64,000 nt of DNA from Flavobacteriales bacterium (GTDB taxonomy: Bacteria > Bacteroidota > Bacteroidia > Flavobacteriales_G > Salibacteraceae), in the NCBI GenBank assembly GCA_018660685.1, contig JABJJW010000012.1:1-64000 (forward strand). The letters run 5' to 3'. Positions 38,052-45,770 of this stretch are shown here, in pieces (positions within the stretch are counted from its first letter, which is position 1; each line of letters opens with the position of its first letter). Position numbers and translations under genes: made by a program. Under the pieces are notes generated by a model. That model ran no database searches. It was not told the origin of the DNA and was given only the letters and a program-made list of their open reading frames with translations.

Positions 38052-38402
38052 ACATATGAGTTCAATCAATGGAAACTGAGCGACCAAGGAAACAAGGAAG
38101 CTTATCAACTTTTGAAAACGCTGGTATCGATGTCTCCAAATGTGAAGATCAAGCTGGACGGATTCACCGACACCTATGGCACAAGAGCAGTTAACGACCG
38201 CATTTCATACCTGCGGGCTTATAACTTACACAACCTTCTAGTCTCCAAAGGGGTTAGAATGGAGAACATCACCATGGTTGCCCATGGAGAGTCAAAGCCC
38301 ATCGGACGGTGCGCATATGAGTATCCATGCCCTATAGAAGATAGACAAAAGAACAGAAGGGTTGAAGTGCGACTGACTCCGCGGTATATGGAAGGGAAGT
38401 AA
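38052..38402 (+). pseudogene. OmpA C-terminal domain remnant
   Basis: In the frame open from the stop at 38049-38051 there are about 116 residues of an OmpA-like peptidoglycan-binding domain: TYEFNQWKLSDQGNKEAYQL, LDGFTDTYGTRAVNDRISYL, RAYNLHNLLVSKG, and VEVRLTP at the end. There is no ATG before the domain (first possible starts are TTG at 38112 or later), no signal peptide, and no N-terminal part. It starts 17 bases after the GT117 stop. I read it as the 3' end of a deleted OmpA-family gene; a short non-canonical protein is less likely. Confidence 0.65.
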
Positions 38403-38461
38403 TTCTCTGTCTATCTCATCTCAAGACATTTTATTCATAAATTGGCTTCACTTGGCACGCG

Positions 38462-38491
38462 TTGTGCATGAGGGCTAATCCCGTATTTTTG
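38462..38491 (+). promoter_or_regulatory. Promoter of the yfiR-like operon
   Basis: TATTTTTG at 38484-38491 matches the -7 box TAnnTTTG, with TTG at 38462-38464, a 19-base spacer, in the -33 position. It lies 14 bases before the GTG start of the YfiR-like gene. Confidence 0.55.
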
Positions 38492-38505
38492 CACGGAACT
38501 TTGCA

Positions 38506-39036
38506 GTGAAGAAGCTACTTCTCATTATATCGCTCATTTGCGGATTGACGGTTATCTCGCTGGGTCAGACTATGAACAAGCTGAACACCCGGGCGAAGAT
38601 GAAATCGATGTATATATCGAATTTCGCCAAGTACACCGAATGGCCAGCCGAGTATAAGCAGGGAGAATTTGTGGTCGGCGTCGTCAATGATGACGCACTT
38701 GCCACCATGATGGAAACCATGGCTAAGACTAAGACCATCAATGGTCAGAAGATGGTCATTAAGCGATTCAGCAGTCCTTCAGAAATTACTAAATGTCACC
38801 TCATTTACGTTGCCGGAAAAGCTTCCGGTGAGGTGCAACCGTATGTTTCAAAAGTTTCCAAATTCAGCTGTCTCATTGTGACAGAAGGAGCTGGTCTAAT
38901 CGATAATCTTTCAGCAATTAACTTCTTGACCATAGCTGGTCCATTGAAGTTTGAGATGAATAAGAAAACATTTAATAATCAGGAATTAATAGTAAGTACA
39001 CTCTTGGAAAATTTAGCAACTAAAGTCATTAAGTAG
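38506..39036 (+). CDS. YfiR family periplasmic protein
   Basis: A 176-residue exported protein: signal peptide ending VISLGQ, then a YfiR (DUF4154) domain with KSMYISNFAKYTEWP at the start, FVVGVVNDDALATMM, CHLIYVAG and FSCLIVTEGAG, and the closing INFLTIAGPLKFEMN. In Pseudomonas YfiR is a periplasmic repressor of the diguanylate cyclase YfiN. Here the downstream genes encode a TPR protein and a HAMP/SpoIIE phosphatase, spaced 5 and 10 bases apart, so it may regulate the phosphatase instead. The start is GTG. The paired cysteines of YfiR are reduced to two (TKCHL and FSCLI). Confidence 0.82.
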   Translation: MKKLLLIISLICGLTVISLGQTMNKLNTRAKMKSMYISNFAKYTEWPAEYKQGEFVVGVVNDDALATMMETMAKTKTINGQKMVIKRFSSPSEITKCHLIYVAGKASGEVQPYVSKVSKFSCLIVTEGAGLIDNLSAINFLTIAGPLKFEMNKKTFNNQELIVSTLLENLATKVIK

Positions 39037-39041
39037 AACAA

Positions 39042-39941
39042 ATGAAAAGGCACCTATTAACCATAGTAGTCTTATTCATGATGATACCGGTCGGGTTAAG
39101 GGCTCAGCTCGATCCAGTGTCGTTGGCGCTCCGTGCCTATCAGAATAAGGATTTACCTAAAGCACGTGAGCTCATTGAAATCGCCACCGGCGACGACAAT
39201 TACAATAATCAGGCGAAGACTTGGTATTTCAGAGGATATATCTATAAGGATATCTACTCTGCAAATAAGCAAACCAAGGATGGACGTGAGAGTAGACAAC
39301 AGGCCATTGAGTCCTTTTTTAAGGCCGTTGAATATGACACGAAGGAAGAGTTTAAAGCAGACTGCTATAAAGCGCTGAACTTCCTTGCCGCTACACTGTA
39401 CAACGAAGCCGCGAGAGCCCTCGATTCGGCAAACTTCGATGTGGCAGTGGATTACTTTGAACAGCACAAGGAGATACAATGCATTGTGACTCCAGGAATT
39501 GATTGGACCGAACGTACAATCGACTTCAAACTATACATGGCATCCAAGTATTCACACTTGTTTGACAACCCTCGTCCAGGAGACGATCCGGATGAATTAG
39601 GCCAAGGAATCATTAGAATATATAATGAAGTCCTCGACCTCGATTCAGACAATGTTCAGGCAAATTATAACCTCGCAATACACTACTACAACCAGGGTGT
39701 AAGCATTATTGAGAACATGGACTATGAGCTCGATTTTGAGGAATTATTTGCTATTCAAGCCACGGTCATGGAACTGTTCGGCTCTGCTCTCCCCAACATG
39801 CTTAAGGCATACAAGCTCAATCCGTATAGGAAAGAGACCTTGGTCGGGCTTTCAGGTATTTACTTCGGCCTCAATGATATTGAGTCCTCGGAGCACTACC
39901 AGGAAGAGTTGAAGAAGTTAGAGGAAAAGGAACAGAATTAA
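39042..39941 (+). CDS. Periplasmic TPR protein in the yfiR-like operon
   Basis: A 299-residue exported protein: signal peptide ending GLRAQ, then TPR-like helix pairs (ALRAYQNKDLPKARELIEIA, TWYFRGYIYKDIY, AIESFFKAVEYD, NYNLAIHYYNQGVSI, ALPNMLKAYKLNPYRKET). No catalytic motif. It is probably a scaffold between the YfiR-like protein and the membrane sensor encoded downstream, an inference from gene order. An acidic, Lys-rich tail ends the protein. Confidence 0.8.
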   Translation: MKRHLLTIVVLFMMIPVGLRAQLDPVSLALRAYQNKDLPKARELIEIATGDDNYNNQAKTWYFRGYIYKDIYSANKQTKDGRESRQQAIESFFKAVEYDTKEEFKADCYKALNFLAATLYNEAARALDSANFDVAVDYFEQHKEIQCIVTPGIDWTERTIDFKLYMASKYSHLFDNPRPGDDPDELGQGIIRIYNEVLDLDSDNVQANYNLAIHYYNQGVSIIENMDYELDFEELFAIQATVMELFGSALPNMLKAYKLNPYRKETLVGLSGIYFGLNDIESSEHYQEELKKLEEKEQN

Positions 39942-39951
39942 ACCGTAGACT

Positions 39952-41745
39952 ATGTTTTCACAATTCAGCATTGGAAGGAAGATTAGCCTAGGCTTCGGAG
40001 TAGTCATCGTATCGATGATTGTTGCTTTCTTCATCACGAACAAAACGTTCGACAGTAGCCAGAAAATCAACGAAGAGATTACGACCAATCACAACCCGTC
40101 AATTGGAAAATTGGAGGAATTGAAATTGATGATCGTTCGCTCTAAGATGCTTATTAACAACTGGGTTTATCAGCCCAGCGCGCAAGAAAACGAGGACAAA
40201 GTTGCACTCAACAAGCTCACGGTTTCGGAATATCCTAAGCTCAAATTAGAAATTGAGACTTTAGCCAAGAATTGGACAGATACTGCCAATACCCAAGTCG
40301 AAATCCTTTTCGGAAATATTGAAACCCTCTGGTCAAGCCATGAAGATATCAAGCAAACCTTGAGCGGCTTAGAGAGTTACAACGACCCCATGAATCGATT
40401 TACTGCCAACATCACAGTCGAGCAGGGAGGTGAAATCGATTTTCAAACAGACTTCGTCACGGAAGGCCTCAATGTTCTCATCGCTGAGAAGAAGGAAGAG
40501 ATGGAATCCATTACTGGTGAAATGAATGATTCATTTGACTTGGTACGAACTATGATTTGGACCTTGGGTATTTCATTGACTCTTGCAGGTATCCTCATTG
40601 CATTCCTAACGACCCGAACAATCGTGTCACCTGTGAGAAAACTCAGGTTGATTCTTTTGGATCTTTCGAAAGGAATTTTTCCTAAGTCCTGGATTAATAC
40701 AAGAGGAGATGAAATTGGTGAAATGGCCAATGCACTCGAAACGGTTGTTGCCGGTATTGGACGTGCAAAGGACTTTGCCATCGCCGTTGGTTCTGGTGAA
40801 TATGTTTCGGAGTACACACCACTTAGTGAACAAGATGAACTTGGACAGTCACTCCTTGTCATGCGCACAAACTTGAAAGAGTATGCCGAGGACATGGAAC
40901 AGAAGGTCAAGGAGCGTACGGCGGAAGTAGTTCGTCAGAAAGAAGAAATCGAGAAGCAGAGTGAGCAGATTGCTGAACTCTATGAGCAGGTGAAAGACAG
41001 CATTCTATATGCGAAGAGAATTCAAGAGGCCATCCTTCCATCGAAGGCTGAAATTGACATGTCTATTAAGCACAATATGGTTTTGTTCCGTCCTAAAGAC
41101 ATTGTAAGTGGCGACTTTTATTGGTTCTCTGAAAAGGATGACAAAGCAATCATAGCAGCCGCTGACTGTACAGGACACGGAGTTCCAGGTGCACTCATGA
41201 GCATGATTGGCTCATCTCTTCTAAACGAGATTGTCAATGAGAAAGGCATCACACAACCAAATGAGATTCTCTATGCTCTTAAGCACGGAGTAATCAACGC
41301 TCTTAACAAGCATCCATCTGCTGGTCAAACAAAGGATGGTATGGACATCGCAATTTTGGTTATTCCTAAAGAAGGAAACAAGGTTGAGTACTCTGGTGCT
41401 AATAATCCACTCTGGCAGATTAGAAATGGAGAGATCCTTGAAACGCGCGCTGATCGTCAGCCAGTCGGATTCTTTGGCGACAACCTTAAAACGCCATATA
41501 CAAATCATGAGATAGAAGTTCATCAGGGTGATGCACTTTACCTCTTCTCAGATGGATACGCCGATCAGTTCGGTGGACCAAATGGAAAGAAGTTCAAGTA
41601 TTCTCAATTCAAAAGCCTTCTCCTCGGCGTTCAAGAAGAGACCATGGATTCTCAGAAGGACATCCTAAACACCCGCATCGAAGAATGGATGGGTGATGAA
41701 GAAGAGCAGATCGATGACATCCTTATCGTTGGTATCCGCTTCTAA
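39952..41745 (+). CDS. Membrane sensor with HAMP and SpoIIE/PP2C phosphatase output
   Basis: A 597-residue signalling protein. Helix 1 (about 10-28), a periplasmic helical sensor of about 165 residues, helix 2 (about 198-218), then a HAMP domain (RTIVSPVRKLRLILLD), a coiled coil (about 300-345, KQSEQIAELYEQVKDSI), and a SpoIIE-type PP2C domain with PKDIVSGDFYWF, AADCTGHGVPGALMSMIG, YSGANNPLW and LFSDGYADQFGGPNG. PP2C enzymes dephosphorylate Ser/Thr, often on anti-sigma antagonists. It ends the operon begun by the YfiR-like gene. Confidence 0.93.
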   Translation: MFSQFSIGRKISLGFGVVIVSMIVAFFITNKTFDSSQKINEEITTNHNPSIGKLEELKLMIVRSKMLINNWVYQPSAQENEDKVALNKLTVSEYPKLKLEIETLAKNWTDTANTQVEILFGNIETLWSSHEDIKQTLSGLESYNDPMNRFTANITVEQGGEIDFQTDFVTEGLNVLIAEKKEEMESITGEMNDSFDLVRTMIWTLGISLTLAGILIAFLTTRTIVSPVRKLRLILLDLSKGIFPKSWINTRGDEIGEMANALETVVAGIGRAKDFAIAVGSGEYVSEYTPLSEQDELGQSLLVMRTNLKEYAEDMEQKVKERTAEVVRQKEEIEKQSEQIAELYEQVKDSILYAKRIQEAILPSKAEIDMSIKHNMVLFRPKDIVSGDFYWFSEKDDKAIIAAADCTGHGVPGALMSMIGSSLLNEIVNEKGITQPNEILYALKHGVINALNKHPSAGQTKDGMDIAILVIPKEGNKVEYSGANNPLWQIRNGEILETRADRQPVGFFGDNLKTPYTNHEIEVHQGDALYLFSDGYADQFGGPNGKKFKYSQFKSLLLGVQEETMDSQKDILNTRIEEWMGDEEEQIDDILIVGIRF

Positions 41746-41819
41746 TCTGGATGACCATTAACAGGATTCATTGAGGTTCATAAAACTGCTTATGGCTTTT
41801 CCGCTTGTGCGGATTAGAC

Positions 41820-43261: not shown

Positions 43262-45770
43262 ATGCGTCGTCTATTTATTCTTGCCTTGTTTGTCCTCACG
43301 GGACTTACATCCTATGAGCAAGGATTCAGAGATAAGTTTTCTGAAGCCAATATCCTGTATGAAGATGGATTCTACTCCTTGTCGATCCGTCTGTACATGC
43401 AATTACTCAAAGACCACCCTGACAACGCCAACCTTCACTATAAAGTCGGAAGAGCGTATTTAGACATGGGTGTATCTAAAAACAGTGCACTCCCCCATCT
43501 TCAAAAGGCTGCGAAAAAGATTAAAAAGACATACGACCCCTATGCATCAAGCATGAAATCAGCGCCGGTTGAGGCATAATTACTTAGCACACGCTTTTCA
43601 CCTGGACGAAAAATTGGATAGCGCAGACTTCTACTTTGACAAGTTTCTAAGCGACGCTAGCAAAAGGCATTATTTAAAGCCCGAAGCCGACCATCAGAAA
43701 GTAATGGTTGCAGTCGCTAGAGAATTGATTGCCAATCCTGTTCGAGTTCGAATATCAAACATTGGCAAACCAATTAATTCCGAATACGCCGAATACTCAC
43801 CCATAATCGCCTTCGATGAAAATTCGATGTTCTTCACCTCACGAAGACGAAGAAAGGATGAATCAAACATGGCCGATATTGACATTACCACAGGACTTCA
43901 TTTCGAAGACATTTATGTCAGCAACCGTAGCGTCAGAGGTGAATGGCTCGAGCCAGAGCTCATCAATATAAATGTGGCAGACCAACATAGTTCTGTGGTG
44001 AGCATGAGTACCGATGGCATGACATTGTACATCTACAAGACCTACAGCGTAGACGGAAATATTTACGTCTCTGATTTGGATATTGGCCAAGGATGGACAA
44101 CTCCTTTTCTGGTCGGTTCTAATGTAAACAAGGACTACAATGAATTTTACGCCAATCTCAGCTATGACCGCCGTGTGTTATACTTCGTTTCAGATCGCGA
44201 AGGAGGTGAAGGAGGAAAGGACATATACTACGTCAAACGTCTTCCAGATGGAACATGGGGTGAAGCGACAAATGCCGGACCGGAGATCAACACAGAATTC
44301 GACGAAGACGTTCCGTTTTTTCATCCTGACGATCGCACCATGTATTTTGCCTCTAACGGACATAAAAGCATGGGTGGATTTGATATCTTCTACGCTCAGT
44401 TAGGTGATGATAGTATTTGGTCAGAACCAGTGAACATGGGCTATCCACTCAATTCAACAGACGACGATCACAGCTATATTGCCACACCTGATGGTCGACG
44501 TGGTTATTATGCTTCTAAGGGGAAAACTTCACTTGGAATGACGGATATATTCATGGTTGAATACCTGGAAGACGCCGAACTGATGCCAGAATTGGACCTC
44601 ACAGCATTCGCCGTTTTAAAAGGGTGGGTAATCGCACCATCAGGTAGCATCCCAGACAGTTTTCGAATCGCAATTACAGACAGCGCGTCTGGACAACCCG
44701 TGGGAGAGGCGAAACCCGTCGCAAGAAACGGATCCTTTGTTTTCATTATTCCTTCCGACGCTTCATACCAGGTTGACTACTTACTCGGGAATGAAAGTTT
44801 GTACGATGAAAAACTGCGAATTCCAGCTGGCGTTACCTATCAAGAACTCACCAGGGAGATCTTCTTGTATCCAAAAGGCAACAGCATTGCGGCCATTGCT
44901 ATCAAGGATGAGGTATTGGGCGATGTAGTTAGATGGAAACTCAGCATGGACGATCCAAAAAAGCTTATTCCGCTTGGGTCGAAAGTCATGTATCTCGATG
45001 AAAATGGAAACGTGATCGATTCAGCTCAAGTCAGCATTGATGGATACTTCGAATACAAGAAACTGGTGAATGGTGGGAATTTCATCTTGAAGCCAATCGT
45101 GCTTGGAACTGATAATAGTGCCCTTCAAATTACCCTTATTGATGAGGAGGATAAAATTGAAAAGATCGAAATGGTCAACCAGAACGAACTCTTTTTCGAA
45201 TCATCTATGGTTGAGCTCGCTTCTACTGATCGAGAATTGCCTGAAGAATCCACCTTACCCGAAGAGACACAGACCGTGAGTCAAGAAATCGGACCGGAAG
45301 AAGAAGAAGTTATCGAACCAGTTGTAACATCGACTAGAGAGGAGGAAGAAGTGGCCTCCTTCCCAGAAAAGAAAATTCCAACACCGAAATACGCGGCGGA
45401 AGATGCCTTTACTTTCAGCTTCGACTACAACCAAACATCTTCAGAATCATTTGAGTCAATACTCGAAAAATTGGTCAAGAGAATCGAGGACGAAATCGAT
45501 GAAAATGGATCAGTATCAATTGACTTGGAATCTTCGGCATCAACGGCCCCAACCTCGCTCGCCGGAGGGAATTTTGAGCTAAGTAAAATTCGCCTGCAAT
45601 CCGGGAAGTTAGCACTGTTCGAAGCGCTGGAATCTGCTCAAATAGATATGAACAAGATTTCGACAAAATCAGAAAATGCACTGATTTCTGGGCCTGACTA
45701 TTTCACTGATCCTTCCACCACAAAAAGCATATTCGCTGATTATCAATACTTTAGGGTGGTTATCAATTAA
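43262..45770 (+). pseudogene. PorE-like TPR/PD40 outer-membrane protein, frameshifted
   Basis: Two reading frames join into one protein of about 835 residues. The first (43262-43579) gives a signal peptide and TPR repeats up to SMKSAPVEA; the second (43569-45770) continues with YLAHAFHLDEKLDSADF, PD40 propeller repeats (ISNIGKPINSEYAEYSP, LYFVSDREGGEGGKDIYYV, MYFASNGHKSMGGFDI) and a C-terminal region. Near 43577 GCATAATTAC would read GCATATTAC, giving VEAYYLAHA, if one A were removed. This is a single-base insertion. The downstream gene (836 residues) is its intact paralogue. Its C-terminus lacks a clear OmpA motif. Alternatively the break is an assembly error. Confidence 0.85.

Follow-up and report, generated by a model that had tools for sequence, protein, structure and literature searches.

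A YfiR-TPR-SpoIIE operon of Bacteroidia and its proposed role in linking the cell envelope to a SiaA-like phosphatase

The locus and its upstream region

The stretch of DNA that we analysed (the window, 64,000 nucleotides) carries a compact operon encoding a YfiR-like protein and a TPR protein, both putatively secreted, and a membrane-bound sensor phosphatase. As noted when the sequence was first read, one promoter precedes the three genes, which are separated by gaps of 5 and 10 bases, and our coordinates reproduced this arrangement:

38052..38402 (+): remnant of an OmpA-domain gene, 5'-truncated, identified by an OmpA match (E 6.8e-10) and by comparison with relatives
38434..38446 (+): element TTCATAAATTGGC, 5' of the operon promoter, a genus-level footprint in 13 aligned upstream regions
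38462..38491 (+): promoter of the Bacteroidota type, TTG (38462-38464), N19, TATTTTTG (38484-38491)
38506..39036 (+): yfiR-like gene, 176 aa, GTG start, for a putatively secreted YfiR/HmsC-like (PF13689) protein
39042..39941 (+): tpr gene, 299 aa, for a putatively secreted, all-helical, module-specific TPR protein
39952..41745 (+): spoIIE gene, 597 aa, for a two-TM sensor phosphatase laid out as TM1, periplasmic helical bundle, TM2, HAMP, coiled coil and SpoIIE/PP2C
40045..40545 (+): periplasmic part of the sensor, about aa 32-198, a four-helix bundle with TM limits set by inspection
40609..40749 (+): HAMP domain, aa 220-266 (PF00672, E 1.2e-5)
41065..41742 (+): SiaA-like SpoIIE/PP2C catalytic domain, aa 372-597

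Upon aligning the 13 upstream regions from the genus, we found that the -7 box of the operon promoter (TAnnTTTG) is kept across the genus, with weaker conservation of the -33 TTG. The element TTCATAAATTGGC, which the original prediction did not contain, has its sole exact copy within the window at 38434-38446; as a genome-wide regulon mark it proved too weak, its core yielding 11 matches in the genome of origin against 5 for the reversed control. Divergence values (dN 0.17-0.45, with synonymous sites saturated) agree with constraint.

The OmpA remnant has an in-frame stop directly 5' of the homology and lacks a normal start. An OmpA-domain gene immediately precedes yfiR across much of the host genus and in a few distant loci, and it is intact in several relatives. 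As it was seen in just 15 of about 75 loci, we rejected it as a fixed part of the module; by analogy to YfiB in Pseudomonas, the OmpA-domain protein may, in some relatives, provide a cell-wall input as an optional part.

The periplasmic proteins and their linkage to SpoIIE

YfiR is known chiefly as a protein that holds back c-di-GMP production in biofilm-forming Proteobacteria. The assignment of the first protein as YfiR-like was borne out by profile search, in which it aligned with PF13689 (DUF4154/YfiR-HmsC) at E 2.5e-27 and 96.1 bits (Pfam cut-off 24.9) over positions 2-142 of the 143 in the profile; inspection of its N-terminus indicated a putative Sec-type signal peptide. Among the NCBIfam models, the TOL_0243 branch (NF053591) came nearest at 91 bits, under its cut-off of 125, and the model for the sequestration protein YfiR gave just 18.9 bits. 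A sequence search against solved structures left Pseudomonas YfiR unmatched and returned one spurious designed repeat protein. Pseudomonas YfiR has two conserved cysteine pairs, 71-110 and 145-152 (PMC4655355); among 26 YfiR proteins of the module, C97 is the only near-invariant cysteine.

The second protein is matched weakly by the Pfam TPR families (best 21 bits, cut-off 25), and its AlphaFold (AF2) model shows helices throughout at a pLDDT of 94.5. It begins with a putative Sec-type signal ending in ...RAQ. A class-wide search recovered a full-length ortholog in about 112 of 395 Bacteroidia genomes, representing about 24 families.

We examined the linkage of the three genes in two ways. Upon searching 60 relatives for PF13689 and inspecting the neighbourhood of each match, we found that every same-genus genome carries the three genes in an unchanged order (in one of them, L067, the contig ends inside spoIIE), as do members of other families. 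We then searched GTDB contigs with the TPR alignment as sole query. Among the best 80 of 121 contig matches, YfiR lay directly upstream of TPR in 79/79 testable loci and HAMP-SpoIIE directly downstream in 78/78, with the proviso that the seed alignment was built from triad loci, so that it would overlook diverged TPR paralogs found in different gene contexts. All of these best 80 loci came from metagenome-assembled genomes of Bacteroidota, including Flavobacteriales, Salibacteraceae, Vicingaceae, Chitinophagales and others. The triad was also intact in 14/14 further loci sampled from the class-wide search. Eight loci that appeared to hold TPR without YfiR and five that appeared to lack TPR were artefacts of ORF calling; a stop-to-stop scan found YfiR in all of them. 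Because the gene order was kept in 79/79 and 78/78 loci (best 80 of 121) and in 14/14, chance neighbourhood can be ruled out. Hence the order is not random among relatives, the TPR gene lies between YfiR and HAMP-SpoIIE as was first noted, and the three genes form a locked operon. The hosts of the module are mostly uncultured environmental bacteria. A few diverged TPR paralogs do surface in the class-wide search, in the form of TPR fusions.

Fusion proteins provide the strongest support for functional contact among YfiR, TPR and a SpoIIE output. In eight proteins (from L057, L063, L074, L075, L079, L080, L081 and L082; all eight detected by HMM and five confirmed by Pfam), a putatively secreted YfiR domain is connected through a coiled coil and a single TM segment to SpoIIE. 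Five further proteins (L231-L235) join TPR to SpoIIE across a TM segment, and of these the three longer proteins that were checked carry an intervening PAS domain; the TPR-SpoIIE fusions lie directly 3' of an OmpA-domain gene, and no YfiR was seen there. In L236, TPR is joined to a class III nucleotide cyclase. As YfiR and TPR are each separately fused to SpoIIE, both appear to serve as input parts of SpoIIE receptors. The coupling of YfiR to a SpoIIE/PP2C output, proposed from the single locus, thus finds support in both the locked operon and the YfiR-SpoIIE fusions, and the suggestion that the TPR protein is the link to the sensor gains support from the TPR-TM-SpoIIE fusions.

Sensor and phosphatase domains

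AlphaFold modelling of the sensor phosphatase (68 sequences; mean pLDDT 79.9) predicted four long periplasmic helices. In VIA, the periplasmic part matched the MCP2201 LBD (9kup) with a Z of 16.5 and an rmsd of 2.0 over 130 residues, a score to be read in the light of the fact that helical bundles easily score high. A Pfam search of the sensor found no CHASE8, PAS or GGDEF domain; kinases of other Bacteroidota whose genes neighbour yfiR do carry CHASE8. The original prediction had regarded the module as the same periplasmic repressor module as that of YfiN, a notion that found no support in that form: the sensor has a chemoreceptor-like helical bundle, unlike YfiN, and the YfiR of the module lacks both cysteine pairs.

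The third protein ends in a SpoIIE domain (Pfam E 5.3e-20) in which the acidic active-site/metal-binding residues D388, D405, D462, D465, D534, D588 and D589 are invariant in 68 sequences. Its nearest solved structure is SiaA-PP2C (6k4e), by sequence (E 1.6e-59, the next match at 7e-5), by Foldseek (E 3.9e-18) and in VIA (Z 29.8 vs 22.0). A tree built from SpoIIE domains places the RsbU-like proteins in a clade of their own (100/100), apart from a group containing the phosphatases of the triad, the fusions and the phosphatases next to SiaC; branches within that group are poorly resolved. By sequence, the phosphatase domain, whose activity is predicted, is closest to SiaA, not RsbU.

A SiaC-type route and its rivals

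SiaC is known chiefly as an activator of a diguanylate cyclase. We detected no GGDEF domain in the genome of origin (96% complete) and none in any of 13 genus genomes (0/13), an absence that is strong, if not absolute, across these 13 genomes and that agrees with the earlier remark that this lineage generally does not rely on GGDEF proteins. The genome of origin nonetheless encodes two SiaC proteins, and the gene for a SiaB-type kinase immediately precedes that of one of the two (PF19788 E 4e-36, PF09345 E 6e-44 for the adjacent pair). This siaB-siaC pair lies outside the operon, on another contig, and keeps E61 in SiaB and T68 in SiaC, the positions reported for P. aeruginosa (PMC7647112). 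If the absence of GGDEF from the genome is true, the target of SiaC here is not a SiaD-type enzyme.

In a few relatives, siaC or siaB-siaC adjoins the module: L185 has the array siaB-siaC-yfiR-tpr-spoIIE, with 155 bases from siaC to yfiR, and in L079 siaC follows the YfiR-SpoIIE fusion after 10 bases. SiaC occurred in 25/26 of the genomes that carry the module or a fusion vs 18/34 without (p=1.7e-4), and by genus in 12/12 vs 13/24 (p=0.006), a co-occurrence that is a weak sign since SiaC is found commonly throughout the class. The genome of origin also has at least four further SpoIIE loci that could serve SiaC. An upstream gene of ~110-140 aa in Vicingus-like loci was considered as a SiaC and rejected, as it encodes a basic secreted protein.

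We favour, at a probability of about 0.6, a three-component envelope sensor in which a signal acts through YfiR and TPR on a SiaA-like phosphatase that sets the phosphorylation of SiaC. YfiR and TPR would make up the sensor's periplasmic face, or attach to it, and control the state of the sensor, with the TPR protein probably acting as a scaffold that docks YfiR onto the helical-bundle sensor. The state of YfiR, perhaps dependent on a ligand or on the cell wall, would be passed by or with TPR to this bundle, and from there via TM2, HAMP and the coiled coil to a dimeric PP2C domain, which would take off the phosphate put on Thr68 of SiaC by the SiaB kinase, in a partner switch of the SiaABC type. 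The probable readout of the external signal is dephosphorylation of a regulator protein; the physical contacts, the substrate and the sign of regulation are inferred.

With regard to that sign, YfiR may be a solute-binding-like ligand sensor that activates the phosphatase when loaded, a possibility that is compatible with our favoured explanation and that we consider less likely than not. Its fold is similar to a periplasmic ligand-binding domain (PMC4655355), and TonB plug proteins often adjoin YfiR in Bacteroidota; in a phylum sample, YfiR most often adjoins, or is fused to, a histidine kinase, near a TonB plug protein. Moreover, in the eight fusions YfiR is tethered and cannot be carried to the outer membrane, so sequestration, which cannot remove YfiR there, cannot be the general mechanism. 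Against ligand-dependent activation stands the behaviour of Pseudomonas YfiR, which represses YfiN and whose loss activates YfiN (PMC4655355, PMC3375315). We regard repression by YfiR as the default state as no more than moderately likely.

With regard to the substrate, the original prediction suggested partner switching of a sigma factor. Partner switching as such is likely, but most probably it proceeds via SiaB/SiaC rather than via the classical sigma-factor RsbW/STAS pair. In the classical switch, SpoIIE would dephosphorylate a STAS anti-anti-sigma factor and a sigma factor would be freed from an RsbW-like kinase, and the genome of origin does have one of each: an RsbW-like kinase (148 aa frame, G000:C23) and a stand-alone STAS protein (138 aa frame, G000:C20). 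We nevertheless consider this route improbable: the catalytic domain is SiaA-like and falls outside the RsbU-like clade, and a separate RsbU-like phosphatase in genus relatives (the 120-138 bit class) suits STAS better. The gene for the RsbU-like phosphatase of the genome of origin is split over two frames. The SiaB/SiaC route is favoured both by this placement of the catalytic domain and by the siaB-siaC or siaC genes beside the module in some relatives. Finally, a shared operon by itself is no proof of contact, yet that YfiR and TPR do another envelope job and are merely co-regulated with the phosphatase gene is very improbable given that each is fused to SpoIIE outputs elsewhere and that the gene order was invariant in every locus examined, across many families.

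The module belongs to neither of the two systems that it resembles. As in YfiBNR (TpbB/YfiN, P. aeruginosa) and HmsCDE (Yersinia), a PF13689 protein, here putatively secreted, is encoded with a two-TM HAMP effector, and as in YfiBNR an OmpA-domain neighbour is found, in several relatives of the module. Unlike in YfiBNR and HmsCDE, the output is PP2C instead of GGDEF, the sensor is a helical bundle instead of PAS/CHASE8, a TPR protein is added and YfiR is without the conserved cysteine pairs; the OmpA protein, moreover, is optional and, in this genome, a mere remnant. With SiaABCD of P. aeruginosa, the module shares a two-TM HAMP-PP2C phosphatase, apparently of the SiaA type, and the genome shares a SiaB kinase that retains E61 and a SiaC substrate that retains T68. 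It differs in that the input genes are YfiR and TPR, in that SiaD and GGDEF were not found in the genome, in that the phosphatase gene is separated from siaB-siaC here, and in that the phosphatase, over its C-terminal part, reaches 230 bits against the NCBIfam SiaA model, below the equivalog cut-off of 700. Malone et al. 2012 (PMC3375315) described Yfi as a modular system in which a PAS/HAMP core is combined with histidine kinase, HPT, GGDEF-EAL or MCP outputs. These divergent systems likewise move a YfiR-type input to another output, but they keep the PAS/HAMP core, and we found no mention there of a PP2C/SpoIIE output, a TPR partner or a helical sensor. In the literature searched (subscription papers lay outside it), we found neither a PP2C output of YfiR nor YfiR together with SpoIIE.

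Taken more broadly, we see about an even chance that the module represents a widespread Bacteroidia system, undescribed in the literature searched, where YfiR and TPR form a periplasmic complex that serves as a general input cassette for Ser/Thr phosphatase (occasionally nucleotide cyclase) outputs and controls partner switching of the SiaC type without c-di-GMP synthesis, SiaC having a target other than a diguanylate cyclase. Components of the YfiR and SiaC kinds co-occur here in a lineage without detectable GGDEF, probably in one pathway, which raises the testable questions of what YfiR's input is when the output is not c-di-GMP, and what role SiaC has without SiaD. With orthologs in about 112 of the 395 sampled Bacteroidia, the module points to a common and apparently unstudied route from the envelope to the cytoplasm in environmental Bacteroidota.

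Surroundings of the operon

Ahead of yfiR, the first gene of the yfiR-tpr-spoIIE operon, we found the following features:

38052-38402: 5'-truncated remnant of an OmpA-domain gene, between a DUF2723-like gene and yfiR
38434-38446: element TTCATAAATTGGC, upstream of the operon promoter and conserved across the genus

At the place of the remnant, relatives carry an intact TPR-PD40-OmpA gene (encoding up to 1343 aa), while other relatives have lost this gene upstream of yfiR. A second, weaker copy of the conserved element, TTCATAAAACTGC, lies at 41777-41789, ahead of the gene that follows the operon. Further downstream, at 43262-45770, a reading frame of 105 aa that encodes the start of a secreted TPR protein overlaps, in a different frame, one of 733 aa that opens with TTG and encodes a PD40 protein, as if a single gene had been frameshifted.

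Other SpoIIE and SiaC genes of the genome

Elsewhere in the same genome, a SpoIIE gene (L097:6264-7489; G000:C4:34269-34837) is broken across two frames; this is possibly the genome's RsbU-like gene. Several genus relatives, by contrast, carry intact RsbU-like genes. Another protein (L099:6446-8512, 688 aa) combines a match to the GldM N-terminal domain (E 6.9e-13) with a SpoIIE domain. The second SiaC (L096:6941-7315), away from any SiaB and adjoined by a response regulator, reads N-G-S-T where the first reads N-T-S-S, and so does not retain Thr68.

Fusions of the TPR domain and of YfiR

Five proteins (L231-L235) join the TPR periplasmic domain to TM-(PAS)-SpoIIE in one chain, each with an OmpA-domain gene immediately 5' (kelch repeats in 3/3 checked), and at L236 this domain is joined to a class III nucleotide cyclase. 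In other Bacteroidota, YfiR itself forms a single polypeptide with a histidine kinase at L220-L224, and numerous YfiR-histidine kinase pairs lie close to TonB plug proteins.
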